Positions 1,670 to 33,073 of a stretch of 33,073 nucleotides of DNA are shown here, piece by piece. Where the stretch lies: the IMG/VR virus record IMGVR_UViG_3300042878_000954, positions 1-33,073 of that record. One strand, 5' to 3'. The notes beneath the pieces were generated by a model, which saw nothing but the letters and a program-made list of their open reading frames with translations, did not search any database and had not been told where the DNA came from. This DNA is from a virus. How positions within the stretch are numbered: the first letter of the stretch is position 1; the number at the start of each line of letters is the position of its first letter. Both the position numbers and the translations under genes were made by a program.

Positions 1670-2086
1670 TTGCCACAGTTCGCAGAAGACTGGCGTGTTG
1701 ACGCACTCTGCAAAGACCGAGCCATTGATCTTTGGTACCCGCCACTAGACACTGACGTTCCAGAGAATTACTACATAATCTCTAGAGCAGTATGTCACCA
1801 GTGCCCAGTCTGGAAAGAATGTCTAGACGATGGAGTGGAAGAGAAGTGGGGAATGTGGGGCGGTCTGACGCCACAAGAGCGCACAGCGCTTACTGTAGAG
1901 CATCCTAAAGCCAGCGTGATGCGCCAGCATGGTACATGGGTGCGTTATAGGCAAGGTTGTCGTTGCCCTGAATGTGAGACTGCGGAGTCAGCAGAGATTA
2001 ATAAAATAAATATTGAAGAGATTCCTAAAATGGGTGCAAAAGAGATTGATTTAGAGATGCTTAAGTTTAGGTTGATTCAGTCTTAA
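1670..2086 (+). CDS. whiB: WhiB-family Fe-S transcription regulator with extra C-terminal Cys cluster
   Basis: The 138-residue product has the WhiB cysteines C14, C42, C45 and C51 (CHQCPVWKEC), which bind a [4Fe-4S] cluster in this family, followed by the turn motif GMWGGLTPQER at 61-71. The start is TTG, directly after the previous TAA. A second unit, HGTWVRYRQGCRCPEC (87-102, C97/C99/C102), resembles a small Cys motif that occurs alone or fused in actinophage proteins. Phage WhiB proteins are known to act on host transcription or on superinfection; the target here is unknown. The tail (103-138) is helical and charged. Confidence 0.9.
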   Translation: MPQFAEDWRVDALCKDRAIDLWYPPLDTDVPENYYIISRAVCHQCPVWKECLDDGVEEKWGMWGGLTPQERTALTVEHPKASVMRQHGTWVRYRQGCRCPECETAESAEINKINIEEIPKMGAKEIDLEMLKFRLIQS

Positions 2087-3048: not shown

Positions 3049-4109
3049 GAGTAGGTATTGCCAGCGGTGACTACATTGACGCCAAGCGAGCACAAGACAA
3101 CAAAGAACACTGGGGTGGCTCAGGATGGGCACGCCTAGGTCAGTATGTGGATCGCCTAGAGCATGTCACCATCACGGGAACGCTCACATGGCAAACAGAC
3201 CGCTTCTGTATTCGTGACGCTGATGACATTCTGCATGCTGTGGACATGGTGATCATGCAACGACTCATGCACGCAACGCTTGCCGATCACATCCTCAAGG
3301 CTCGTGCTATCGGTCAAGTGATCGTGAATGACTTGGATGACTGGTACTGGGGGCTTGATCCGTCTAATGATGCTTTCATGTCTTCACACCCAAAGACAAA
3401 CCCAAAAGAGAACCGAGATCACTACAAGAAGGTAATGTCGTCCAGCACGCTAGTAACAGTCTCCACCAAGTATCTTGCTGACCGCATCAAGTCCTTCGTG
3501 CATTGCCCAATTCTTATACTGGAGAACACCGTGGACATAGAACGGTTTACACCGCATGTGCACACTGATAGTTCTGTTCCTGTAGTTGGTTGGGTTGGTG
3601 CCACGAGCCATCGCTCAAGTGACTTGGAAGTTATGCGTGGGATTATTAACCCACTATTGGCTAATGGTGACATCACCTTTCAGCACAGTGGTAATCATCT
3701 AAACGCTCCATCGGTAGCCAGCCTTCTTGGGCTTCACGATGATCAAGTAAAGACTCTAGGTGCGGTTGATGCTTTGCTGTATCCATCGCTGTTGACCATG
3801 GATGTCGGGATTGCACCATTGCGTGACACGCCGTTTAACCACGCCAAGAGCGACATCAAATTGTTGGAGTACTCCGCTTCGGGGATTCCATGGATTGGTT
3901 CATCGCTGTCGGCGTATGAGAGTTTGCGTAAAGAGTGGGGTGTTGGTCGTACTGCGAGTAAACCATCGCAGTGGCTCAAGCATCTGAAGGATCTCAAGGA
4001 TCCAGTCAGGCGAGCAGACGAGGGAGAGGCTTTAAGAGAAGCAGTGCGCTCACGAGACATCAGCCTCGGAGCACACCGCCTCAATTCACTTATTGACAGT
4101 CTTACTTAA
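3045..4109 (+). CDS. Glycosyltransferase, GT4-like (GT-B fold)
   Basis: The 354-residue product starts at GTG 3045, overlapping the zinc-ribbon stop. The N-terminal half contains IASGDYID, a Gly-rich turn GGSGWARLGQY and VIVNDLDDWYWGL, as in phage group 1 transferases. The C-terminal half has VVGWVGATSHRSSD, then DVGIAPL and the sugar-nucleotide site region KSDIKLLEYSASGIPWIGS, where KLLEY fits the E-x7-E region of GT4 enzymes. It probably transfers a sugar to DNA, a virion protein or a host glycan. Its 3' end overlaps the opposing WhiB gene by 24 bp. Confidence 0.85.
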   Translation: MRVGIASGDYIDAKRAQDNKEHWGGSGWARLGQYVDRLEHVTITGTLTWQTDRFCIRDADDILHAVDMVIMQRLMHATLADHILKARAIGQVIVNDLDDWYWGLDPSNDAFMSSHPKTNPKENRDHYKKVMSSSTLVTVSTKYLADRIKSFVHCPILILENTVDIERFTPHVHTDSSVPVVGWVGATSHRSSDLEVMRGIINPLLANGDITFQHSGNHLNAPSVASLLGLHDDQVKTLGAVDALLYPSLLTMDVGIAPLRDTPFNHAKSDIKLLEYSASGIPWIGSSLSAYESLRKEWGVGRTASKPSQWLKHLKDLKDPVRRADEGEALREAVRSRDISLGAHRLNSLIDSLT

Positions 4110-4478
4110 CTTTCGTTCTTTGCGTTCAACACGCTGTCGTAATACCTCACGCTCTGTCGGCTTGAGGTCATCCATTTCATAACCAGCCCATATACCATCT
4201 CTGAAGTCATTCAGAACGGCATAGCGCAGGCATTCGTATTGCACTGGGCATGAACCACAGATTCGTTGTGCACGCTTCCTACGGCTGTTAACAGTCTTCC
4301 CTCTAGCGGATGAGTTGTTAATGCCCTTTGGCTTACTGGCGAACCACATTGATGAATCTTCTTCTCTGCACTTGGCTTGTAGTCTCCACTTAGCGTTTAC
4401 TTCGGGGAACGGAAGCGGTGTGATGTCCATGTCTAAAACAGAGGTGGGGGATTTCTCCCCCACCACCGCTTCGGTCAT
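4086..4478 (-). CDS. whiB: Second WhiB-family Fe-S transcription regulator
   Basis: The 130-residue product has C37, C74, C77 and C83 (CGSCPVQYEC) and GIWAGY at 95-100, the complete WhiB signature. The region 60-72 is basic (KTVNSRRKRAQR). The C-terminal tail (106-130) is Lys/Arg-rich, as in DNA-contacting WhiB tails. Its start overlaps the DUF932 stop (ATGA), so it depends on upstream translation. A strong 8-bp inverted repeat lies in codons 5-12 (4443-4464) and could modulate that coupling. Sequence similarity to WhiB 1 is low outside the motifs, so it is not a recent duplicate. Confidence 0.9.
   Translation of the reverse strand: MTEAVVGEKSPTSVLDMDITPLPFPEVNAKWRLQAKCREEDSSMWFASKPKGINNSSARGKTVNSRRKRAQRICGSCPVQYECLRYAVLNDFRDGIWAGYEMDDLKPTEREVLRQRVERKERKLSKTVNK
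4443..4464 (-). promoter_or_regulatory. GC-rich hairpin inside the first codons of WhiB 2
   Basis: GGTGGGGG (4443-4450) and CCCCCACC (4457-4464) form a perfect 8-bp stem with a 6-nt loop, 14 nt after the WhiB 2 start. A stem this strong in a coding start is unusual and may slow ribosomes entering from DUF932. Confidence 0.5.
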
Positions 4479-18046: not shown

Positions 18047-18149
18047 CAATGTTCCACAGCAATGTTCCACAGTATCCACAGGATATACACAGGGGTGCCT
18101 GTGGATAACTCAGCAAAGCCTTATGGGGTATGGAGTACCCTGTGGATAA
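18047..18149. other. Candidate replication origin: tandem 13-mers and DnaA-box-like sites
   Basis: The 13-mer CAATGTTCCACAG occurs twice end to end (18047-18059, 18060-18072). It is followed by GTATCCACA (18072-18080, one mismatch to the DnaA box TTATCCACA) and by two perfect boxes on the opposite strand, TGTGGATAA at 18100-18108 and 18141-18149. The cluster lies in the only long noncoding gap and between diverging operons. No classical AT-rich unwinding stretch is obvious. Confidence 0.5.
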
Positions 18150-19738: not shown

Positions 19739-20056
19739 ATGTCAGCACATGAGAGCCTCAGCCACCAGTTCATAGACAAGCGTGGCAAGGAGCACACGAT
19801 CCGTACGACCCCGTTTGGGGACGTGGAGGCACGCAGTGGTAAGACCACGACTGGTCGCTTAGGCGTCATGTTGAACTTCCAAGAAGGTGGAGAGCGTCCA
19901 CACATGGTGTTCGGTATCGCCACGAACAAACGGTATCAAAACAGAGGTGTAGCCACCGCAATGTTCAACGCCGCCGAGTCCCACTATGGTCCAATTGACA
20001 TTGGTCCGACTTCATCTGATGAAGGTGCAAACTGGAAAAAGAAGATGGGTCAATAG
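19739..20056 (+). CDS. GNAT-family acetyltransferase with N-terminal tag
   Basis: The 105-residue product begins MSAHESLSHQF (tag). Residues 56-80 read MVFGIATNKRYQNRGVATAMFNAA, with the acetyl-CoA site RYQNRGVA. It follows the previous gene after 3 nt with no ribosome binding site, so it should be translated by coupling. Substrate unknown. Confidence 0.78.
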   Translation: MSAHESLSHQFIDKRGKEHTIRTTPFGDVEARSGKTTTGRLGVMLNFQEGGERPHMVFGIATNKRYQNRGVATAMFNAAESHYGPIDIGPTSSDEGANWKKKMGQ

Positions 20057-20470
20057 ATGTCAGCCCAAGAACACCTCAGCCCGAAGTTGTTTCATGGCTC
20101 TGCCCATATGTTTACTCCAGGCGACACTGTAAATCCTGTACCAAAAAGCGAATGGCATCACGAAATGTTTGGTTCTTATGCGTATGCTACCAATAATGAT
20201 TTGTCTGCTAAATCCTATGCTGGACAAAAGGCTCAAGAACAAGGACAGTTGTTTGCCCCAGTGTATGAAGTAGAGCCAGTAGACCCGACAGAGCACACTG
20301 AGTACCCTGGTAACAATGGAGCCAACGCCAGTCCTAAAGAATTTGCTGAAAGAGGCACATCACATGCTGTACACAGCAAAAAAGGATTTAAAGTAGTTAA
20401 GCATCATGGTTGGGGTACTAATCCTGACGCTTGGGTTCACCCTGACCAACGACGATGGGACACACCCTAA
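20057..20470 (+). CDS. ADP-ribosyltransferase-like protein, Arr type, with tag
   Basis: The 137-residue product begins MSAQEHLSPK (tag), then LFHGSAHMFTPGDTV (11-25), a close fit to the FYHGTK...GD start of Arr-type ADP-ribosyltransferases, with YAYATNN (41-47) and VYEVEPVDP (69-77) at the places where Arr has its second and third sheet motifs. Arr enzymes move ADP-ribose from NAD to a small molecule or protein; the target here is unknown. It follows the GNAT gene without a gap. Its stop overlaps the next start (TAATG). Confidence 0.72.
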   Translation: MSAQEHLSPKLFHGSAHMFTPGDTVNPVPKSEWHHEMFGSYAYATNNDLSAKSYAGQKAQEQGQLFAPVYEVEPVDPTEHTEYPGNNGANASPKEFAERGTSHAVHSKKGFKVVKHHGWGTNPDAWVHPDQRRWDTP

Positions 20471-20739
20471 TGCCTCGCCTAGACGGACAGCAGTTCCGTA
20501 AGGTAGGAAACCATAAAATGTACCGTCACGGTACAGGTAACTGGGAGACCACCGACAACTACCACTTCCAGCAAGGCACCCCACCTACTAACTTGTGGAA
20601 CGTGCATGACCTCCGAGATGTGGATGCATGGGAACCAGTGTTTGAAACACAGCACGGTAACCTACAGAGTGCACATGCAGAGTTCAGGCAGTACCACCCT
20701 GAGCGTGAAGCGGGCAAAAAGCCGCTACTGGACTACTAA
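20470..20739 (+). CDS. Tagged protein of unknown function (MPRLDGQQF type)
   Basis: The 89-residue product starts at ATG 20470 by TAATG coupling. Its first nine residues MPRLDGQQF are identical to those of the 51-residue protein at 21119. The rest is rich in His, Trp and Asn (YRHGTGNWETTDNYHF) with no recognised family. Confidence 0.65.
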   Translation: MPRLDGQQFRKVGNHKMYRHGTGNWETTDNYHFQQGTPPTNLWNVHDLRDVDAWEPVFETQHGNLQSAHAEFRQYHPEREAGKKPLLDY

Positions 20740-21119
20740 TGGCGGCAAGAGACCACATTGGTGACCAATTCAAGGTAGTCCATCAGAAACTAGGTGAAGG
20801 TGTAGCCGCTAACAGGGGCTGGCATTCTCTAACGCTTCAAGACCCAAAAGAAGGTACAGACCTTGCTCGTGTGTCTTTTGAGCACTACAACGACCCACAT
20901 TCTGAACCATCGTCAAGAATAGACATAGATTACCTAAAGAGCAATGTTGAGGGACAAGGACATGCCCAGCGACTCATGGAGCACATGTACAACCGATACC
21001 CAAAATCACACATTGACTGGGGTTTGACAATCAACCCAACATCCACACACATTGCTTCAAAGTTTGAAGACAAGTACTATGACAGGACTTCATATCAACC
21101 AGAAGAGGGTATGGACTAA
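20739..21119 (+). CDS. GNAT-like acetyltransferase with N-terminal tag
   Basis: The 126-residue product begins MAARDHIGDQF (tag). Its middle has strand RIDIDYLKSNVEGQGHAQRL (60-79), where EGQGHAQRLM matches the GNAT acetyl-CoA loop, followed by a helix and strand. It is the third GNAT-like gene in the block, on low sequence identity. TAATG couples it to the neighbour on each side. Confidence 0.7.
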   Translation: MAARDHIGDQFKVVHQKLGEGVAANRGWHSLTLQDPKEGTDLARVSFEHYNDPHSEPSSRIDIDYLKSNVEGQGHAQRLMEHMYNRYPKSHIDWGLTINPTSTHIASKFEDKYYDRTSYQPEEGMD

Positions 21120-21274
21120 TGCCACGTTTAGACGGACAGCAGTTCAATGACTATGTGTGGATAGACGGTGAGCCTGTCGCCCGACAAGAGATCCACAAGG
21201 CCGCTGGATTCACCAAGCGTGACCCTGAGTACCTGCTAGAGAAGAATAAGCAAAAACAGGAACGGAAGAAGTAA
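21119..21274 (+). CDS. Tagged small protein (MPRLDGQQF type)
   Basis: The 51-residue product opens with MPRLDGQQF, exactly as in the protein at 20470, then VWIDGEPVARQEIHKAAGF and a basic tail (KNKQKQERKK). It may be a minimal tag carrier or a degraded relative of a longer protein. It is coupled by TAATG on both sides. Confidence 0.65.
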   Translation: MPRLDGQQFNDYVWIDGEPVARQEIHKAAGFTKRDPEYLLEKNKQKQERKK

Positions 21275-21528
21275 TGGCGGCGCATGAAGCCATTAACTGG
21301 GACCAACATTACGGTAAAGCATTCCGTATCGCTAAAGCCCCACGTGAGGCAGTGAACGGTCCTGGAGATGATGCATGGTCTATTGTGACTCCAGAGAACG
21401 GTGACTCATGGAACGAGTGGCCTGATGCCTCCCCAGAACACATTGCGTCTGCTAAAAAGAACTGGAGCACCATCCAGTCAGGGATTGCTGACTACAAAAT
21501 GGGTCAAATACGTAGGAGTATGAAGTAA
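21274..21528 (+). CDS. Tagged protein of unknown function (MAAHEAINWDQ type)
   Basis: The 84-residue product begins MAAHEAINWDQHYGKAFRIA; its first eleven residues match the ART-like protein at 22769 (MAAHEGINWDQ) apart from one change. The remaining sequence is short and polar, ending basic (GQIRRSMK). It may be a truncated relative or an independent small effector. Confidence 0.65.
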   Translation: MAAHEAINWDQHYGKAFRIAKAPREAVNGPGDDAWSIVTPENGDSWNEWPDASPEHIASAKKNWSTIQSGIADYKMGQIRRSMK

Positions 21529-21558
21529 CCTCTGCATAATTTTTCGGTGACAACCGTC

Positions 21559-21564
21559 TATAAT
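21559..21564 (+). promoter_or_regulatory. Leaderless -10 element (TATAAT-N6-ATG)
   Basis: A perfect TATAAT lies exactly 6 nt before the ATG at 21571, in a 42-bp gap. No Shine-Dalgarno is seen. Confidence 0.75.
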
Positions 21565-21570
21565 TGACCT

Positions 21571-21930
21571 ATGCAAGATCCTCGCAGACCACTTCCGCCT
21601 CGTGCTAAAGAGCGTGTAACTAACTACACCTCGTTAAGAGGCGACTCAGAGCCTCGTAAGCCTATGGGTAGATATACAGACGACGTAGAGCAGGAAGAAT
21701 ACGGAGACATCTCAATGGGTCCCCGTAATATGGGTCGTATTCGCCCTAATCAGGCTGAATGGGGCGACTATATCCAAGAGGCACAGACCGATTACCTGTC
21801 TGGTATTGCTTCGGGAGAGATTGAACTACCGAAAGTGAAGACCAAAGACGCTAGAAAAGCAGGATTTTCTGGTTTAGGGAACGTTTCTGGCGAAAGAAGG
21901 GCACATATGTCGGAGCAGTTCGGAGAATAA
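21571..21930 (+). CDS. Hypothetical basic protein
   Basis: The 119-residue product is basic and proline-rich at its N-terminus (PRRPLPPRAKERV), with a middle acidic stretch (DDVEQEEYGDIS). It lacks the tag. No family is recognised. Its stop lies 2 nt before the next gene. Confidence 0.63.
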   Translation: MQDPRRPLPPRAKERVTNYTSLRGDSEPRKPMGRYTDDVEQEEYGDISMGPRNMGRIRPNQAEWGDYIQEAQTDYLSGIASGEIELPKVKTKDARKAGFSGLGNVSGERRAHMSEQFGE

Positions 21931-21932
21931 CG

Positions 21933-22769
21933 ATGGCTAAGTACTATTCTGACAAAAATCCTTATGACGGAAACGAACGTTATGAGGAAGTTCACGCAAT
22001 TAGTGACCGTCCTAACGCTAGAGGTATGTACCCACGTGCACAAATGACTGTTAGACATTCAAAAGCCCGTGAGCATGCGAATTTCAAGCAACTAGAAGAC
22101 AACACCGACCTCACCCGAAGCCGAGCACATCAACAAGTCTATGACGAAACAGGCTATGACAGGGGAGAAGTCACAAGGGAACTAGGTGACTCTTACCATA
22201 TGGCAGTATCCGCCGCCCGCCAACTTAACGAATATCGTGATAATTCTACTGATCCCACAGCACAAGAATTTGCAAAGCATTACCGCCGTTACGCTGGGAT
22301 AAATTATGCACAAAACATCAGAGATATTAAAAGAGGAACATCCCAATTCTTTACACCTCAACCTGCAACCACAGAAATACGTGGGGCTTTTGCTCATACA
22401 TCCATGAAAGCCCATATCCCTGTTATGGGAGCGTACTTTCATCAGAAGTATGGTGAACTCACAGCATCTGAAGACCTGTCAGAACATAGTTCACGCATGA
22501 CTGAACATGCCGAAAAACTAGGACTTCCTGTAAAGCGCAGTGAAGATAACCCAGATCTAGACGTTACAAACTCTTACGACTTTAATAATAGCGATATGGT
22601 TGCTTCTGCTACACCGTTTAGTACATCTAGTACTACACGAATCCCTGACGAGACCATGAAATCCGCAAAGCAACACTACAAAGCACTCCGTGGTATTGGT
22701 AAGAGCACCCCTAAGCCGTTGAGTACTCAATTTACCCAGCCTCAACTCCCAGGAATGGAGGACAAGTAA
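21933..22769 (+). CDS. Hypothetical protein with C-terminal proline-rich tail
   Basis: The 278-residue product is not recognised. Residues 1-60 are polar and basic; from about 95 to 145 it is helical (SDSYHMAVSAARQL region, FAKHYRRYAGINYA). A second helical region (155-200) includes HIPVMGAYFHQKY. The tail from about 245 ends STQFTQPQLPGMEDK. Length and lack of tag set it apart from neighbours. It could be a virion or injected protein on context alone. Confidence 0.6.
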   Translation: MAKYYSDKNPYDGNERYEEVHAISDRPNARGMYPRAQMTVRHSKAREHANFKQLEDNTDLTRSRAHQQVYDETGYDRGEVTRELGDSYHMAVSAARQLNEYRDNSTDPTAQEFAKHYRRYAGINYAQNIRDIKRGTSQFFTPQPATTEIRGAFAHTSMKAHIPVMGAYFHQKYGELTASEDLSEHSSRMTEHAEKLGLPVKRSEDNPDLDVTNSYDFNNSDMVASATPFSTSSTTRIPDETMKSAKQHYKALRGIGKSTPKPLSTQFTQPQLPGMEDK

Positions 22770-23287
22770 TGGCGGCGCACGAAGGTATTAACTGGGATCA
22801 GTTTGATGAAAGTTACGAAAAGGGTCATGCTCCATACCTGCAAGGTACTGATGCAGAGGCTGACATGGAGCAGTGGTCACATGGAACCACTAAATGGCCT
22901 AAAACGTATCTACGAGAAGTAAGAGATAGGCGTAGTGAGCCATATCAAAACATGCAACAACATTTAAGGGATGAAGTCAACCTCCCCGATCAGGTGCAGG
23001 TAACCCACAGAGGCAGTGTCCCTAAGGGCGCTAAAGTAAAAAGTGGATCTATAAACCCTAGTTGGACGGGAAGTAACCCAGATAGTGAACTTGGGATACA
23101 TCACTACGGGCAAGACAACAAACTACACATTTACCTAGTTCCCCGTGAACACATTATCGGTGTAGGTCATCCAGGTGAAGACGAAGTATTCTTTGACCAG
23201 GGAAGCCCAAAGAAGAAAGCACCTGCTCCAGGTCTTGGTCAAAAGGGAAGAGCCAAAGCAAGAAACAACTTAAAGCGTCTTAAGTAG
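22769..23287 (+). CDS. ADP-ribosyltransferase-like protein, R-S-E type, with tag
   Basis: The 172-residue product begins MAAHEGINWDQF (tag). Residues 76-82 read VQVTHRG, giving the first ART Arg (R81); PSWTGS near 97-102 could supply the middle Ser/Thr; and GEDEVFF (136-142) has the E-x-E pair (E137, E139) of arginine-specific enzymes, just after HIYLVPREHIIGV. The order R...S...ExE and strand pattern match this fold. The C-terminus is basic (KKKAPAPG, then ARNNLKRLK). Substrate unknown. Confidence 0.65.
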   Translation: MAAHEGINWDQFDESYEKGHAPYLQGTDAEADMEQWSHGTTKWPKTYLREVRDRRSEPYQNMQQHLRDEVNLPDQVQVTHRGSVPKGAKVKSGSINPSWTGSNPDSELGIHHYGQDNKLHIYLVPREHIIGVGHPGEDEVFFDQGSPKKKAPAPGLGQKGRAKARNNLKRLK

Positions 23288-23289
23288 GT

Positions 23290-23295
23290 TAATCT
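23290..23295 (+). promoter_or_regulatory. Leaderless -10 element (TAATCT-N6-ATG)
   Basis: TAATCT is exactly 6 nt before ATG 23302. Confidence 0.55.
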
Positions 23296-23301
23296 CTACT
23301 C

Positions 23302-23943
23302 ATGCTCCCTTTAGAAGCCTTCAAAGACCTCTATAAAGGTAAAACCATCTGGGTCCTAGGTTCTGGTGGCTCATTAGATTTCTTAACACCATCCTTCTTT
23401 GATGACAAGGTATGCGTCGGAGTAAACTTTGTCGGCAAAACGTTCAATCTATTGAACTACTACACGTTTTCGCATTATCACGGCGATTCGTTGGAGATGT
23501 CAGAATGTTCAAACTACGTGTTTGCGCCTAAGAAACAACACGGTAACGCTGAAGAGTGGGTCGGAGACGTACCCGACAACGTTGTGCTGTTTGAAACACA
23601 CACAGGACAGCCTGGAGAGAGTTTTGACCCTTTCGGTAAAGACGACCCAGTAGATGGTCTGATAATCGGCGCATCCAGTATCCACGGCTCTATGCACCTA
23701 GCCGCTTACATGGGAGCCAAGCACATCGTGCTAGTTGGTGCGGACTGTGGCAAGTTGAACGGTAGAGACCGTTTCGGCGCTTATGTTGAAGGTGACAACC
23801 CTTGGGAACTGTACAACAAGCAATTAATTGTTATGAAGCGATGGTTAGCAGAGAGGTTTGGCTGCACCGTGTACTCGCTGAACCCTTTTGTCAATTTCAA
23901 CCTAGAAGGCGTGAACTTCACAGGCACTGCCAACATCAACTAG
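23302..23943 (+). CDS. MptE-like/DUF115-type protein
   Basis: The 213-residue product opens with GKTIWVLGSGGSLDFLTPSF, a nucleotide-binding Gly-rich turn, then VCVGVNFVGKTF, and a C-terminal part GASSIHGSMHLAAYMGAKHI followed by VLVGADCG. This order fits DUF115 proteins (6-hydroxymethylpterin pyrophosphokinase MptE-like), a fold also used by glycan-modifying enzymes. In phages the family often lies near glycosyl- and methyltransferases, and here a methyltransferase lies 2 kb downstream. A sugar-related role is the best guess; it does not carry the tag. Confidence 0.75.
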   Translation: MLPLEAFKDLYKGKTIWVLGSGGSLDFLTPSFFDDKVCVGVNFVGKTFNLLNYYTFSHYHGDSLEMSECSNYVFAPKKQHGNAEEWVGDVPDNVVLFETHTGQPGESFDPFGKDDPVDGLIIGASSIHGSMHLAAYMGAKHIVLVGADCGKLNGRDRFGAYVEGDNPWELYNKQLIVMKRWLAERFGCTVYSLNPFVNFNLEGVNFTGTANIN

Positions 23944-24024
23944 AAACTTAGTTTAACTGCCAACCAACATGTGTACGAAATATACATATGTAATTTTTCG
24001 CTAAATTGGGTAAACAGAGATCGC

Positions 24025-24050
24025 ACTAAATTTGGTACTAAATTTAGTAC
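24025..24050. promoter_or_regulatory. Palindromic operator-like site
   Basis: GTACTAAATTTAGTAC (24035-24050) is a perfect 16-bp palindrome. Its left neighbour ACTAAATTTGGT (24025-24036) is a near copy that overlaps it by two bases. The pair lies 28 bp before a TTGACA box, a position where a dimeric regulator could act. Confidence 0.6.
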
Positions 24051-24077
24051 TAACCACAAATAAACCACTAAAAGGTC

Positions 24078-24105
24078 TTGACAACTCGTATACATCAGTG
24101 ATACT
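24078..24105 (+). promoter_or_regulatory. Sigma70-type promoter, TTGACA-N16-GATACT
   Basis: TTGACA (24078-24083) and GATACT (24100-24105) are 16 bp apart. It precedes the separate leaderless element at 24137 and comes after the palindrome at 24035. Confidence 0.6.
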
Positions 24106-24136
24106 TTGGGGGTGAGCGGGTAATTTTGTTTAGTTG

Positions 24137-24142
24137 TACAAT
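24137..24142 (+). promoter_or_regulatory. Leaderless -10 element (TACAAT-N6-ATG)
   Basis: TACAAT is exactly 6 nt before the ATG at 24149. Confidence 0.6.
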
Positions 24143-24148
24143 CAGTAC

Positions 24149-24379
24149 ATGGCAAAACGCAACGTAAATAAGAACAACCCTGATCCAAGTTCCCCACCGT
24201 CTGCTCCGACTAGTATTTCTGCCGACCGTATTGGTGCATCTGACCAACCAAACCCTACAACTCGCCCTATGCGTCAGGCGGCTTTCCTTGGTGCAGTAGC
24301 AGGTGACTGTGGTTGCCCACGCTGTTCTGGTTACCGTGACATCGCACATATGGTCATGAACCCAGGATCAGAATACTAA
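24149..24379 (+). CDS. Hypothetical small protein with C-terminal CxCxxC site
   Basis: The 76-residue product starts MAKRNVNKNNPD; ATG 24149 fits the leaderless -10 box better than the TTG at 24134. The first half is proline/serine-rich and looks disordered (SSPPSAPTSIS), the second has AGDCGCPRCSGYRDIAHMV with C-x-C-x-x-C, a possible metal site. No family is recognised. Confidence 0.65.
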   Translation: MAKRNVNKNNPDPSSPPSAPTSISADRIGASDQPNPTTRPMRQAAFLGAVAGDCGCPRCSGYRDIAHMVMNPGSEY

Positions 24380-24382
24380 ACT
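24377..24382 (+). promoter_or_regulatory. -10 element, weak (TAAACT-N9-ATG)
   Basis: TAAACT lies 9 nt before the ATG at 24392; spacing is longer than in the other elements of this block, so it is less sure. Confidence 0.4.
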
Positions 24383-24391
24383 AGACAATCA

Positions 24392-25012
24392 ATGTCAGCG
24401 CCACTTAATAACTATCTATTTGGCGAGCATTTTAAAAGAATGCATGGAATGAGTGTTGAAGACGCACTATCTGGCAAAGTTGCCAAAATCAATGACACTC
24501 TATTAACTCCAGAAGAATATGACGATGCATGGTCTGGATCTCGTATCGGAAAAGGTATGCGACCTTTTGCTGAATCTCACGCTGAACTAACACAACCAAC
24601 AGACGTCAGCGCAACTATCCACCAGTTTCAAAGAGAACGTGGGGAACATCTAGTTGGAAACCCTCATCGTGTTGCCGCTGGGTTGCGTGACCTCACACAG
24701 GCTGTGCGTGGTGCTAGTCGTGAAAACGAATCCACTCTGTATCGTGGAGCACGGCGGGCACCTTCACTAGATGTTGGTGAGTCTAAAGACAAGGCTCTGT
24801 CCTTTTCTTCTGATGTGAACGTTGCTCGTTCTTTTGCCGCACCTCGTGGTGGTTCTCGTGGCTCTATCTTTAAAGCCGCTCCAGGTTTAGTACGTGGCGT
24901 ACCCTTGGCTGAGTTAGGCGGTATGCCTAGAACTGTGGGAGAAAAGCGTCGCCCAGAGGCTGAATGGTTGATTGACCCAGCATCGGTTCCTACTGAATGG
25001 CCTAAAAAGTAA
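24392..25012 (+). CDS. ADP-ribosyltransferase, R-S-E type
   Basis: The 206-residue product shows the full R-S-E signature: LYRGAR (R118), LSFSSDVNVARSFA (SFSS at 137-140) and RRPEAEWLI (E189 and E191, ExE). This is the order and spacing of arginine-specific toxin-like ARTs. Residues 1-100 form a helical N-terminal part containing the start MSAPLNNYLFGEHFKRMHGM, a looser version of the tag. It probably modifies a host protein after entry or late in infection. The gene overlaps the Arr-like gene at 25012 (TAATG). Confidence 0.8.
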   Translation: MSAPLNNYLFGEHFKRMHGMSVEDALSGKVAKINDTLLTPEEYDDAWSGSRIGKGMRPFAESHAELTQPTDVSATIHQFQRERGEHLVGNPHRVAAGLRDLTQAVRGASRENESTLYRGARRAPSLDVGESKDKALSFSSDVNVARSFAAPRGGSRGSIFKAAPGLVRGVPLAELGGMPRTVGEKRRPEAEWLIDPASVPTEWPKK

Positions 25013-25356
25013 TGGCTTTAAGTCCAGACCAATTTCCATCAACCTTTTACCATGGTTCAAAATCTCCAGATATGGCAGTTGGTTCGTTTATTGTACCTGC
25101 ACCTCCAACACGAAATCGCTATCACGAAACATGGGCAACTGATAATCCTGATGCGGCACATGCAGAAGCATCAATAAACAGTGAAAATAAACATTTAGAA
25201 AGTCCTGTAAGAATATGGGAAGTAAAACCTATGCGAGGTGGTCAGGATCTCTACGGTCCAACATCTAGTGAACGCCATCCCACTGCAAGAAATTACGCAT
25301 CTCGTCATGGTTGGCGTGTTGTTAGGGAACACCAAGATCAGGGAGGCGCACAATGA
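25012..25356 (+). CDS. ADP-ribosyltransferase-like protein, Arr type, with tag
   Basis: The 114-residue product begins MALSPDQF (tag), then TFYHGSKSPDMAVGSFIVP (11-29), matching the FYHGTK...GD opening of Arr enzymes, ATDNPDAAHAEA in the middle, a strand VRIWEVKPM and a late SSERHPTARNYASRHGW. It is close in length to compact Arr-like proteins. It overlaps the following ParB-like gene by 4 bp. It is a relative of the protein at 20057 by fold but with low identity. Confidence 0.75.
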   Translation: MALSPDQFPSTFYHGSKSPDMAVGSFIVPAPPTRNRYHETWATDNPDAAHAEASINSENKHLESPVRIWEVKPMRGGQDLYGPTSSERHPTARNYASRHGWRVVREHQDQGGAQ

Positions 25357-25721
25357 CTAAAAGGAAGCACGTCCTTAACGAAGCCCAACTGGCTATGTTC
25401 ATTCCTGCACATAAGTTGATGGATATGATCCCACTAGATCAGCCAGAAACGGATAAGCCACAAAAATACAAAGATCTTCCTCAAGTAACTTCTCGTAAAG
25501 TACAAGAAGCAAAAACTGAAGGTTTATACAACGAAATTAAGAGTGAAGGTGTACAAGACCCAATCACAATAGGTCAACACCCTTTCCGTGTTCGTGGTCG
25601 TACTTACGACTACTTTCCTGGAGCCGACTATAAAGGCCCTGTCATTGAAGATGGTCACCACCGCATTGCGGTTGCCAATGACATCAACCCCAACGCAGAA
25701 ATCCCTGTTCAATACGACTAG
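25353..25721 (+). CDS. ParB-like protein, paralog of the gene at 19346
   Basis: The 122-residue product begins MTKRKHVLNEAQLAMFIPAH, a weak tag. Residues 57-70 GLYNEIKSEGVQDP and 100-108 DGHHRIAVA form the ParB-like core, with the intact DGHHR that the paralog at 19346 lacks. The C-terminus ANDINPNAEIPVQYD matches its paralog. Overlap by ATGA couples it to the Arr-like gene, so the two may act together. Confidence 0.75.
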   Translation: MTKRKHVLNEAQLAMFIPAHKLMDMIPLDQPETDKPQKYKDLPQVTSRKVQEAKTEGLYNEIKSEGVQDPITIGQHPFRVRGRTYDYFPGADYKGPVIEDGHHRIAVANDINPNAEIPVQYD

Positions 25722-25724
25722 ACT
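25719..25724 (+). promoter_or_regulatory. Leaderless -10 element (TAGACT-N6-ATG)
   Basis: TAGACT overlaps the stop codon of the preceding gene and is exactly 6 nt before ATG 25731. Confidence 0.6.
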
Positions 25725-25730
25725 TTTGTT

Positions 25731-25904
25731 ATGCCAACATATGCTTATAAATGCGGTAATGACCACCGTCATGAAGAAACCCGTAGTATCTATGACGAAC
25801 AACAAGTAATCAATTGTCCAGACTGCGGTGAGCAGTTACGCCCCGTCTACTTCTCCCCAGCAGTCAATCTGGTCGGTCGTGGATTTTATTCCAACGGAGG
25901 ATGA
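25731..25904 (+). CDS. FmdB-type zinc-ribbon protein
   Basis: The 57-residue product MPTYAYKCGNDHRHEETRSI... then CPDCGEQLRPVYFSP and GRGFYSNGG fits the FmdB/CxxC-SSSS putative regulatory family closely, although the first knuckle is C8-x4-H rather than CxxC. Function of the family is not established, though some members bind zinc. It is the small gene between ParB-like and membrane proteins, with its own leaderless promoter. Confidence 0.8.
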   Translation: MPTYAYKCGNDHRHEETRSIYDEQQVINCPDCGEQLRPVYFSPAVNLVGRGFYSNGG

Positions 25905-25907
25905 ATC

Positions 25908-26117
25908 ATGACCAAATCGGTTATACTTAAACCCCTTATGACTACATTTATCATTGCCGCCATTATCATATTCGCTATTCGTTCATTTCACCGTTTGGTT
26001 ATGCGCTCTGTGGAATCTTATGACTATGTTCCGCACCCTCCCGCAGAAGACCCACATCAAGACACTTACGCATACCTTGGTACCCACACGGACTTCAAGA
26101 GGCGTCATAAAGTCTGA
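25908..26117 (+). CDS. Small single-pass membrane protein
   Basis: The 69-residue product has a hydrophobic segment (TTFIIAAIIIFAI, about 12-24) followed by a basic stretch and a soluble Pro/Asp tail. GGAGG lies 8-9 nt before the ATG. Topology by the positive-inside rule puts the tail in the cytoplasm. No family is recognised. Confidence 0.68.
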   Translation: MTKSVILKPLMTTFIIAAIIIFAIRSFHRLVMRSVESYDYVPHPPAEDPHQDTYAYLGTHTDFKRRHKV

Positions 26118-26128
26118 CCGTCTGTAAG

Positions 26129-26158
26129 TTAGTTGTTTTTAAACTAATCTTTATTTTT
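26129..26158. terminator. Weak bidirectional terminator between convergent genes
   Basis: TTAGTT/AACTAA (26129-26134 with 26142-26147) forms an AT-rich 6-bp stem, followed by TTTATTTTT on the plus strand. It lies where the plus-strand membrane protein gene and the minus-strand methyltransferase gene converge. The stem is weak, so termination may be partial. Confidence 0.4.
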
Positions 26159-26719
26159 AAACCTAAAGGCTAGTTGCCAATCGTCAATACCAATCGTGTG
26201 CCAAATCAAATCTGGAACGTACTTATCTTTCCATGAGTTGTTTTTAGGTATCTCATGGATAACATTTTCTATATCTACAAACTTTAAGTCTCTAAGTAAC
26301 GTCTCTACACGCTTCTCATGAGCATTCCAATGATGTGGTGCGTTATCCCACCATGGGTTATCTCCGATATCGTCTGGCTTCATATGTTGGTGCTCCAACA
26401 CCGCCTCAACTAACCACCATGGTATTTTTCCTTCATGCCACAACTTGATGGACTTGTAAGCATCAGGACAAACAATGAGCATTGGAGCGCCTGGTTTAGC
26501 CACACGAGACATATCTTTAAGGAATGCAGGAACCTCTGCCCACGCAATATGTTCTAAAACATGACTCATCAGTACAGCGTCAAAGGTGTTTTCTTCAAAC
26601 GGGTATGGTTCACCTGGCTTAAGAAGCACGTCGGGGCGTGTCTCCTCATTTTGCCAAACGTCAGTATTTACCCAACCAGCGGCATAATGGGTGCCGCACC
26701 CTGCATTTAAGAGTTTCAT
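26144..26719 (-). CDS. Class I SAM-dependent methyltransferase
   Basis: The 191-residue product has motif I LLNAGCGTHYAAGWVNTDV (3-21), motif II region EENTFDAVLMSHVLEHI, and a post-motif segment APMLIVCPDAYK. This is the methyltransferase_11 layout used for sugars, small molecules or proteins rather than the DNA-methylase motif DPPY. It is the only minus-strand gene in this block, which points to separate regulation or late gain. With the glycosyltransferase and the DUF115-like protein it may belong to a glycan-modifying set. Confidence 0.82.
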   Translation of the reverse strand: MKLLNAGCGTHYAAGWVNTDVWQNEETRPDVLLKPGEPYPFEENTFDAVLMSHVLEHIAWAEVPAFLKDMSRVAKPGAPMLIVCPDAYKSIKLWHEGKIPWWLVEAVLEHQHMKPDDIGDNPWWDNAPHHWNAHEKRVETLLRDLKFVDIENVIHEIPKNNSWKDKYVPDLIWHTIGIDDWQLAFRFKNKD

Positions 26720-26724
26720 TGATG

Positions 26725-26731
26725 TAAACTA
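26725..26731. promoter_or_regulatory. Bidirectional overlapping -10 elements
   Basis: On the plus strand TAAACT (26725-26730) is 6 nt before GTG 26737. On the minus strand TAGTTT (26731-26726) is 6 nt before ATG 26719. The two boxes share five base pairs, so polymerase can occupy only one direction at a time. Confidence 0.65.
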
Positions 26732-26736
26732 TACAT

Positions 26737-26895
26737 GTGATTGTTACTTACCCGATTCATACCCCTGGAATGCAGGATGCCATTGATCAAGCAATGCGTC
26801 TCGCCAAGGCTCATGGCTACAAATCGTCTGTTTTATTAAACATTCGGTCTGTAGGAGTAGGTGCATGGGAAGTAAAACTTCAAGTACTGAAGTAG
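26737..26895 (+). CDS. Small hypothetical protein (GTG start)
   Basis: The 52-residue product reads MIVTYPIHTPGMQDAIDQAM and ends WEVKLQVLK. It has a strand-helix-strand-strand pattern with a Gly-rich turn (RSVGVGAWEV), consistent with a small alpha-beta protein. GTG is supported by the leaderless -10 element. No family is recognised. Confidence 0.65.
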   Translation: MIVTYPIHTPGMQDAIDQAMRLAKAHGYKSSVLLNIRSVGVGAWEVKLQVLK

Positions 26896-26904
26896 AACTT
26901 GGAT

Positions 26905-26910
26905 TAAAAT
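26905..26910 (+). promoter_or_regulatory. Leaderless -10 element (TAAAAT-N5-ATG)
   Basis: TAAAAT is 5 nt before ATG 26916, one less than in the other elements; no ribosome binding site is seen. Confidence 0.55.
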
Positions 26911-26915
26911 AGATC

Positions 26916-27677
26916 ATGGCAAAAAAGAAACCCCAACAAGAACAATTGCCATTGGACTATGGTCCAGGTGGGGACACTTTGCGGTATGGTACGCCCGTAC
27001 AAGAATTGTCTGATGTTGCTAGTCATTTTGCTTCCCGTATAGGTCGCACCCACAACCCAGCCCAATTTGCCAACATCCGTGCAGGGGAGTCACACTACAC
27101 ATCTGCACTGGCTGTACGCCCTGCATATGCATCTCCAAAACCTTTAACTCGCCCAATGCGCCGCAGTTATGATGCCCTAACTAACATTATTAATGAGCAA
27201 TACACACATTTGACTACCCCTAAAGAACAAGGTGGTGCAGGTCTTACTGTTGAAGTAACCCATGAAAACCCCTACGAGCACCCACGAGAGATGCACGAGG
27301 ACATTGCTAAAAACCGCAGACTGCGTGTTTTATCCACTGAATCAACAGGTGGTCATAGTTTATGGACAAATGAACAGAATGATAAATTCCGTGCTGTACA
27401 TGACGCTCTTGGTCACCTTGCTATCGGTCGTGATTTCTCACGGCATGGTGAAGAAGCCGCCTATGAGAGCCATGCGACAACAATGCCAAAGCAAGCACAT
27501 CGTGCCCTTGCCGCTGAGACTCGTGCTCAGAATGCTTACATGATCCATGATCCTAATAAAGATTTCCCGCCTAATGCCGCAATTAACGTCCCATCATGGA
27601 TGACGAGCACCAAAGGTATCCCTAAGCCTAAAAAAAGTAAACAAGCACGTAGCGAACAACCAGAACTACCTTTCTAG
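26916..27677 (+). CDS. Phage protein with VHDALGH / HGEEAAYESH domain
   Basis: The 253-residue product has a basic, proline-rich N-terminus and a C-terminal half with VHDALGH (161-167), HGEEAAYESH (177-186) and ETRAQNAY (201-208). This His/Glu-rich helical motif recurs in phage structural and polyvalent proteins; its biochemical role is not established, but the H-x5-H/E pairs look like a metal site. It ends QPELPF. It is the last gene of the effector block before the tail genes and is a candidate injected protein. Confidence 0.7.
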   Translation: MAKKKPQQEQLPLDYGPGGDTLRYGTPVQELSDVASHFASRIGRTHNPAQFANIRAGESHYTSALAVRPAYASPKPLTRPMRRSYDALTNIINEQYTHLTTPKEQGGAGLTVEVTHENPYEHPREMHEDIAKNRRLRVLSTESTGGHSLWTNEQNDKFRAVHDALGHLAIGRDFSRHGEEAAYESHATTMPKQAHRALAAETRAQNAYMIHDPNKDFPPNAAINVPSWMTSTKGIPKPKKSKQARSEQPELPF

Positions 27678-27696
27678 TACATCGTTAATTTTCATG

Positions 27697-27702
27697 TACA
27701 AT
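27697..27702 (+). promoter_or_regulatory. -10 element upstream of a stable hairpin
   Basis: TACAAT precedes, by about 21 bp, the hairpin at 27724-27749. Transcription would start near 27709 and the RNA would carry the hairpin in its 5' part. Confidence 0.4.
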
Positions 27703-27723
27703 GTATTACCGAGACTCAACGAG

Positions 27724-27759
27724 GACGGGTTGCCTGCGGGCGGCCCGTCTTTCGTGTTT
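27724..27759 (+). terminator. Stable hairpin with U-rich tail
   Basis: GACGGGTTGCC (27724-27734) pairs over 11 bp with GGCGGCCCGTC (27739-27749), including two U.G pairs and a TGCG loop. TCTTTCGTGTTT follows. It fits an intrinsic terminator of the effector block; it lies immediately before an AAGGAG site and a small open frame. Confidence 0.65.
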
Positions 27760-27770
27760 AAGGAGTCACA

Positions 27771-27815
27771 TGAGTAAAAGTGTCTTTATAAAAAACAACG
27801 ACTCCGTAGAGTAAA
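27771..27815 (+). CDS. Possible 14-residue leader peptide
   Basis: ATG 27771, 5 nt after AAGGAG, opens a 14-codon frame (MSKSVFIKNNDSVE) ending at TAA 27813-27815, which overlaps the -10 box of the next gene. A strong ribosome binding site for so short a frame is unusual. It may be a leader peptide or chance. Confidence 0.35.
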
Positions 27816-27817
27816 CT
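27812..27817 (+). promoter_or_regulatory. Leaderless -10 element (TAAACT-N6-ATG)
   Basis: TAAACT is exactly 6 nt before ATG 27824 and would start the tail-gene operon. Confidence 0.65.
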
Positions 27818-27823
27818 TATTAC

Positions 27824-30717
<2,894 letters not shown>

Positions 30718-30718
<1 letters not shown>

Positions 30719-31077
30719 TGGCACATTACGCTTTTCTATACAACAACATCGTTACCGAAGTGATTGTTGGTATTGATGAAACGGAACTTATTGAAGGTTT
30801 GCCACCAGAGCAATGGTATGGCAATTTCAGGAAACAGCCTTGTGTTCGCACCTCATACAACGGCAACATTCGCAAACAGTACGCAGGCATTGGCTACACT
30901 TACAATGCGGATTCCGATGTTTTTATTAGTCCGCAACCATATCCATCGTGGTCTTTAGATGAAAATTATGATTGGCAACCTCCGACACCAATGCCAGAAG
31001 ACGGTATAGGCTATGACTGGGATGAACTGAGCCTATCTTGGCAAGCCTCAATGGTTGAAGAAACAGAGAGTGAGTAA
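30718..31077 (+). CDS. Small tail-associated protein ([17 protein letters not shown] family)
   Basis: The 119-residue product starts at ATG 30718, sharing a base with the previous TGA. Segments [66 protein letters not shown] and [11 protein letters not shown] are the hallmark order of a protein common near tail fibre genes of cyanophages and pelagic phages. Its role is not known; association with the virion or fibre is likely. Confidence 0.82.
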
Positions 31078-31082
31078 ATAAC

Positions 31083-33073
<1,991 letters not shown>

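Follow-up and report, generated by a model that had tools for sequence, protein, structure and literature searches.

A putative compact bidirectional promoter between two divergent, leaderless or nearly leaderless genes of an uncultured phage

Results

The stretch of DNA analysed here (the window) is an uncultured virus record of 33,073 bases. In the window, 17 nt (26720-26736) separate the ATG (26719-26717) of a methyltransferase (MTase) gene on the minus strand from the GTG of a gene for a 52-aa protein (P52) on the plus strand, and the two start codons are 18 bp apart start to start (Table 1). In an alignment of 22 MTase loci, 14 have an ATG or GTG at the codon of the window ATG, and six more (L009-L014) start one codon later. 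The N-terminus of P52, MIVTYPIHT, is unchanged in all eight aligned P52 rows. Because the homologue starts agree, both start codons of the window are credible, and the 17-bp divergent gap described in the first-pass annotation is confirmed by these starts together with the ORF coordinates. The 253-aa ORF next to P52 is possibly co-transcribed with it, the basis being the 20-nt gap between the two. At 26735-26740, an ATG-TGA start-stop pair overlaps the P52 GTG out of frame. This ATG, 4 nt past the plus -10, is present in the records of the window type (in the window with TGA directly after it) and of the L026 type and absent from those of the L029 type, and transcription might begin there instead.

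Table 1. Features of the window and of related loci (coordinates are those of the window unless a locus is named)
Feature	Position	Strand	Remarks
WhiB-family transcription factor gene	1691-1891	+	match over cut-off
WhiB-family transcription factor gene	4173-4388	-	match over cut-off
MTase gene	26144..26719	-	SAM-dependent, Methyltransf_11/23/25; 191 aa; ATG first base 26719
Promoter core (putative) TGATGTAAACTATA	26720..26733		14 bp; conserved
Near-palindrome ATGTAAACTATACAT	26722..26736		12 of 14 non-central positions symmetric in the window
Plus -10 TAAACT	26725..26730	+	6 nt before GTG 26737; matrix score 8.87
Minus -10 TATAGT (on balance preferred)	26733-26728	-	8 nt before ATG 26719; matrix score 5.65
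TAGTTT, minus hexamer of the first-pass annotation	26731-26726	-	6 nt before ATG; matrix score -4.36
P52 gene	26737..26895	+	52-aa protein; GTG start at 26737-26739
253-aa ORF	26916..27677	+	downstream of P52; phrog_3170
Minus neighbour: window-type MTase (window, L024, L025, L028)	8 nt from TATAGT	-
Minus neighbour: PhyH, then MTase (L026, L027, L029-L032)	7 nt from TATAGT	-
Minus neighbour: MTase of another lineage (L034)	9 nt from TATAGT	-
Minus neighbour: PhyH of PhyH-MTase operon (L194)	GTG 28 nt from TATAGT	-	PhyH 68% identical
Minus neighbour: 231-aa gene (L033, L197)	31 nt (L033), 30 nt (L197) from TATAGT	-
114/118-aa gene	L034 2648-3004; L033 2660-3004; L197 2148-2504		stop overlaps P52 ATG

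The fold predicted for P52 is beta-alpha-beta-beta with a mean pLDDT of 95, and its codon changes in five relatives comprise 8-17 synonymous versus 0-6 nonsynonymous ones. P52 had no match in Pfam or PHROG, none in the PDB at E 0.001 (best 0.057) and none among named phages at E 0.1, and BFVD holds two 52-aa proteins of uncultured phages that match it. Among the named phages, the MTase matched at only 28% (two records of Streptomyces phage KimJongPhill), and window 20001-33073 had no megablast match. Elsewhere in the window, the segment 20057-20470 matches the rifampin ADP-ribosyltransferase Arr-ms weakly (E 0.0009, below the curated cut-off), and 25012-25356, which has no Pfam match, resembles it by eye.

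The host is likely an actinobacterium, as the two WhiB matches and the Streptomyces-phage-like tail sheath and RecA suggest. WhiB proteins are not known outside actinobacteria and the phages that infect them, and the WhiB search matched one of 14 control genomes, a Corynebacterium. The tail sheath (34%) and RecA (42-44%) of the relative G002 have their closest counterparts in Streptomyces phages, BRock and LuckySocke among them. Streptomyces phages make up, or are among, the six best named phages for RecA; for the tail sheath, 122 named-phage records match, mostly Erwinia and Pseudomonas phages by name, and the six best are Streptomyces phages. A prophage search of genome contigs with the tail sheath found no relative, and a search of these contigs with the MTase alignment returned 16 distant MTases (24-39% identity) from planctomycetes, proteobacteria and others, with no host signal.

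To place the two putative -10 boxes in context, strict -10 hexamers in the window and four relatives of 95-97 kb were counted by their distance (gap) from candidate starts, 4,002 in all, using mechanical ORFs with at most eight candidate starts each. Gap 6 had 35 hexamers, and no other gap between 0 and 19 had more than eight (range 0-8), in genomes that are related and not independent, and in the same five sequences the Shine-Dalgarno (SD) cores peaked at gaps 5-9. This phage group therefore has a genuine class of leaderless genes in which the -10 lies exactly 6 nt ahead of the start codon. In the window, six other plus starts have a gap-6 hexamer (18288, 19042, 19346, 21571, 25731 and 27824), and one further plus start within 18.3-27.8 kb has a hexamer at gap 7. 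Gaps 7 and 8 had six hexamers each, including the locus studied here and its orthologues, with no peak, so that a TATAGT lying 7-9 nt from an ATG could give a 1-2 nt leader or be a weaker promoter.

We then scored the boxes with a -10 matrix built from 27 leaderless sites of the window and four relatives (P52, being below the length cut, was left out). The plus score, which includes the G before the hexamer (GTAAACT), is matched or beaten at 0.02% of window positions, and that of TATAGT is equalled or exceeded at 0.06%. TAGTTT is below background, its score being equalled or exceeded at 16% of window positions; since strict hexamers made up its training set, the matrix disfavours TAGTTT partly by construction. 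On this score TAGTTT was judged the less likely minus -10. The first-pass annotation had described -10 boxes that share five base pairs, both exactly 6 nt from a start codon. A TANNNT pair with 26726-26730 in common (TAAACT and TAGTTT) is indeed present, and the 6-nt distance holds for TAAACT; the preferred pair of TAAACT and TATAGT has only 26728-26730 (3 bp) in common, and TATAGT lies two nucleotides farther from its start codon. Thus the plus -10 is convincing, and the minus -10 is on balance TATAGT, with an overlap of 3 bp. In the TAGTTT register, TAGTNT is retained in all 14 P52-linked records described below, at a distance of 5, 6 or 7 nt from the ATG where the record is of leaderless type; this retention is largely a consequence of TATAGT together with the plus box, whose A and T force part of it.

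By chance, a loose TANNNT pair is expected in about 0.6% of 17-nt divergent gaps, and a pair of stricter hexamers (gaps 6-7 / 6-9) in 0.03%. Among 678 CAY-N17-RTG strings in the window and the four 95-97 kb relatives, two have TANNNT on both strands, namely the window site and its orthologue in L037. Opposed overlapping -10 elements, one of the features of a bidirectional promoter, are present and retained in relatives. The reciprocal -7T/-11A pattern fits starts at 26737 and 26719, with 26730 T and 26726 A serving both strands, which is the TAGTTT register; the TATAGT register lacks this pattern and would place the starts nearer 16-17 bp apart, off the published mode of 18. For the same two starts, the plus strand has a T at -18 (26719 T), and the minus strand has none because of the plus start codon GTG. 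As for leaderless anatomy, the plus gene has a gap of 6 and no SD motif; the minus gene has a slightly long gap with TATAGT, and a gap of 6 only with the weak TAGTTT. A consensus -35/-10 scan of 25900-27900 found three promoter-like sites versus 3.8 expected and none at the 17-bp gap, as expected for a -10-only promoter.

A scan with the P52 protein gave 11 loci and one with the P52 alignment 13, which together with the window make 14 P52-linked records, or ten sequence types at 98% identity over 250 nt. The 14-bp core is present in every one of them (ten exact, three with one mismatch, one with two), just upstream of P52 or of a 114/118-aa gene preceding P52. TATAGT is invariant in the 14 records, and TARACT is found in 13; L194 has TACACT 9 nt before P52. 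L033 and L034, which were found by P52 protein similarity, have all 14 core bases at third-codon identities to the window of 40% and 34%. Among 19 MTase loci with no P52 nearby, none has the core within one mismatch (the best, L015, has two mismatches within 4 kb), so the core travels mainly with the P52 operon and not with the MTase; two such loci, L004 and L005, have a TATACT-N6-ATG of their own. With A or G allowed at its variable base, the core is present as a single copy in the window and in each of the four 95-97 kb relatives, and G011 has a second core-like site (one mismatch) before a one-way leaderless gene (L048).

Scanning for a core with a start codon after it yielded 112 stretches, of which 80 were given as loci and filtered for an adjoining ORF, of 40 aa if on the plus strand or 50 aa if on the minus strand. 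Among those 80, ten filtered loci are of the phage group, nine known records and L076, and the others seem by eye to be chance matches inside genes. L076 is a partial exception, with the core beside the 231-aa gene and a 7-codon ORF, and with a distant P52 homologue (35%) at some 1.5 kb from the core. In L076 (core at 3482, reverse strand), the stop of the 7-codon ORF (MTKEYRN) overlaps the ATG of a further gene, and this ORF is possibly a leaderless mini-ORF with coupled translation.

The genes on both sides of the core have turned over (Table 1). On the plus side the core is followed by P52, or by the 114/118-aa gene and then P52; the L034 copy of the 114/118-aa gene has no Pfam match. On the minus side, the genes that start 28-31 nt from TATAGT have an SD-like motif in the leader, AGGAG in L033 and L197 and the weaker GAGAGG in L194, and these leaders support TATAGT as a promoter independently of a leaderless start. 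In the MTase tree, which gives no direction and has 10 of 17 inner branches open, the window MTase groups with those of L003-L006 (100/100), apart from the MTases of the sister loci L026, L029, L031 and L194. Since the window has the core in common with these sister loci, we infer that its MTase was probably exchanged next to a promoter that persisted; alternatively, the sister loci changed their MTase instead. A PhyH dioxygenase gene lies directly upstream of the MTase gene, with adjacent or overlapping ends, in L008-L020 (13 loci), L026, L027, L029-L032 and L194.

Discussion

Taken together, the anatomy of the locus and its relatives agree with the earlier proposal of divergent genes that use common -10 bases and are leaderless or nearly so, which we regard as well supported. 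The two start codons, the two -10 boxes, the conservation of these boxes and the turnover of the flanking genes can all be read directly in the DNA; from these we infer where transcription would start and how polymerase would occupy the site. Very probably, the 17-nt segment is a compact bidirectional sigma-70-type promoter whose two starts, 16-18 bp apart, fall on the start codons or right next to them. Its 14-bp element would combine two overlapping opposed -10s, TAAACT on the plus and TATAGT on the minus strand, with no evident -35, and host RNA polymerase would bind it in either orientation, never in both together. Rightward transcription would start at or adjoining the G of the GTG at 26737 and produce a leaderless P52 mRNA, and leftward transcription would start at 26721-26719 and produce an MTase mRNA with a 0-2 nt leader. 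The predicted spacing of 16-18 bp falls inside the published range of 7-25 bp (mode 18). Both genes would be co-expressed at a low level, with interference only upon activation of one side.

The promoter type itself is known. Bidirectional promoters, as described by Warman, Grainger and colleagues, have divergent starts around a common -10, 7-25 bp and mostly 18 bp apart (PMC10268837, PMC12825309), and the phage locus resembles them in its common -10 bases, its predicted divergent mRNAs and its expected start spacing. It differs from them in being a phage locus with putative starts on or touching the start codons and no evident -35, in a -10 overlap that is likely 3 bp instead of the reciprocal 18-bp layout, and in neighbours that vary around a constant core. 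Leaderless TANNNT promoters are standard in Actinobacteria, and in M. tuberculosis they have no conserved -35 (PMC3898074, PMC3160421). In such promoters, and as proposed for the phage site, the -10 sits some 12 bp ahead of the start codon, at which the transcript begins; the phage site would overlay two of these units in opposite orientations. In the M. tuberculosis transcriptome, divergent promoters lying close to one another are reported to be common (PMC3898074). The divergent neighbours prpD (Rv1130) and Rv1129c are both mapped as leaderless there, but their starts (1254630 and 1254510) are 120 bp apart and so have no common -10 (PMC3898074); closer pairs may exist in that data set. In EcoRV-type restriction-modification control regions, an MTase gene also diverges from its partner over overlapping polymerase sites (PMC5333194). 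However, the phage enzyme belongs to families of the Methyltransf_11 type, and the EcoRV C transcript is described as not leaderless (PMC5333194). No restriction enzyme or C protein was matched among the eight window ORF products scanned. It appears that the head-to-head leaderless arrangement is an unusual variant. A literature search of titles and abstract starts, with little subscription literature, recognised no superposition of leaderless and bidirectional promoters; the 2021 Nature Microbiology paper of Warman, Grainger and colleagues may already contain leaderless cases.

Could the plus promoter alone be real, so that the MTase is reached by read-through or transcribed from some other site, and TATAGT simply reflects the near-symmetry of -10 elements? 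The plus hexamer does outscore the minus one and sits at the modal 6-nt gap, and -10 elements are described as inherently near-symmetric (PMC10268837). Yet TARACT alone does not require a TATAGT that is invariant in all 14 records, in L033, L197 and L194 TATAGT is followed by a leader that gives the minus gene an SD-like motif, and the minus ORFs upstream of the window MTase look by eye like antisense to plus genes. We therefore consider a plus-only promoter unlikely. Operators over divergent promoters are common in phage control regions, and the near-palindrome, with its symmetry at most non-central positions, could be the operator of a dimeric repressor that silences both genes, the symmetry then coming from protein binding. 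In relatives, however, the outer arm TACAT becomes TAGCC, TACCC, TATAC or TACAC while the -10 bases stay constant, and a core present once per genome makes no operator series, G011 having one more at one mismatch. Since the symmetric arms are not kept among relatives, we set this reading aside as improbable.

The first-pass annotation had further held that the two genes cannot fire at the same time, giving a built-in mutual exclusion, which is too strong. A regulatory switch, in which polymerase competition at the common element imposes a strict either/or choice of MTase or P52, is consistent with the steric exclusion of opposed polymerases at bidirectional promoters (PMC12825309). But little competition was reported at basal activity in the five E. 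coli bidirectional promoters tested, where transcription was too low for competition and losing one direction barely helped the other; competition, or repression of one side, appeared once the other side was strongly activated (PMC12825309). Moreover, the minus partner varies (MTase, PhyH or the 231-aa gene), so there is no fixed pair to be kept apart, and we regard such a switch as very unlikely. The common -10 bases are not the cause of the exclusion, which would arise between any promoters whose polymerase footprints overlap. If the E. coli result can be applied to a phage of another phylum, which is our extrapolation, the two orientations of the proposed bidirectional promoter would exclude each other per DNA molecule, and either/or expression could arise only with strong activation of one side.

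More tentatively, and with more doubt than confidence, the 14-bp promoter may act as a gene-docking junction, at which genes are swapped on either side and their start codons land at a leaderless distance from the fixed -10s, or bring a leader and SD of their own. If so, promoter symmetry would set divergent leaderless starts some 16-18 bp apart, possibly in any genome that uses leaderless genes, and divergent leaderless pairs would cluster at about 16-18 bp start to start, which can be checked in annotated actinobacterial and Deinococcus genomes. One core that serves both leaderless and leadered genes would also offer a natural series for measuring the effect of leader loss on expression.

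Across the window, two start regimes are seen. On the minus strand, from 8.0 to 17.2 kb, CTGAGGAGG precedes an ATG as a strong SD sequence in 12 places, ten of them at listed ORF starts, and TATACT-N6-ATG marks leaderless starts on the plus strand between 18.3 and 27.8 kb. The two regimes may reflect different expression phases. Between the SD-led minus genes and the leaderless plus genes, near a change in AT skew, window 18072-18149 contains three DnaA-box-like 9-mers, two of them exact TTATCCACA and one with a single mismatch, and this cluster is a possible replication origin.
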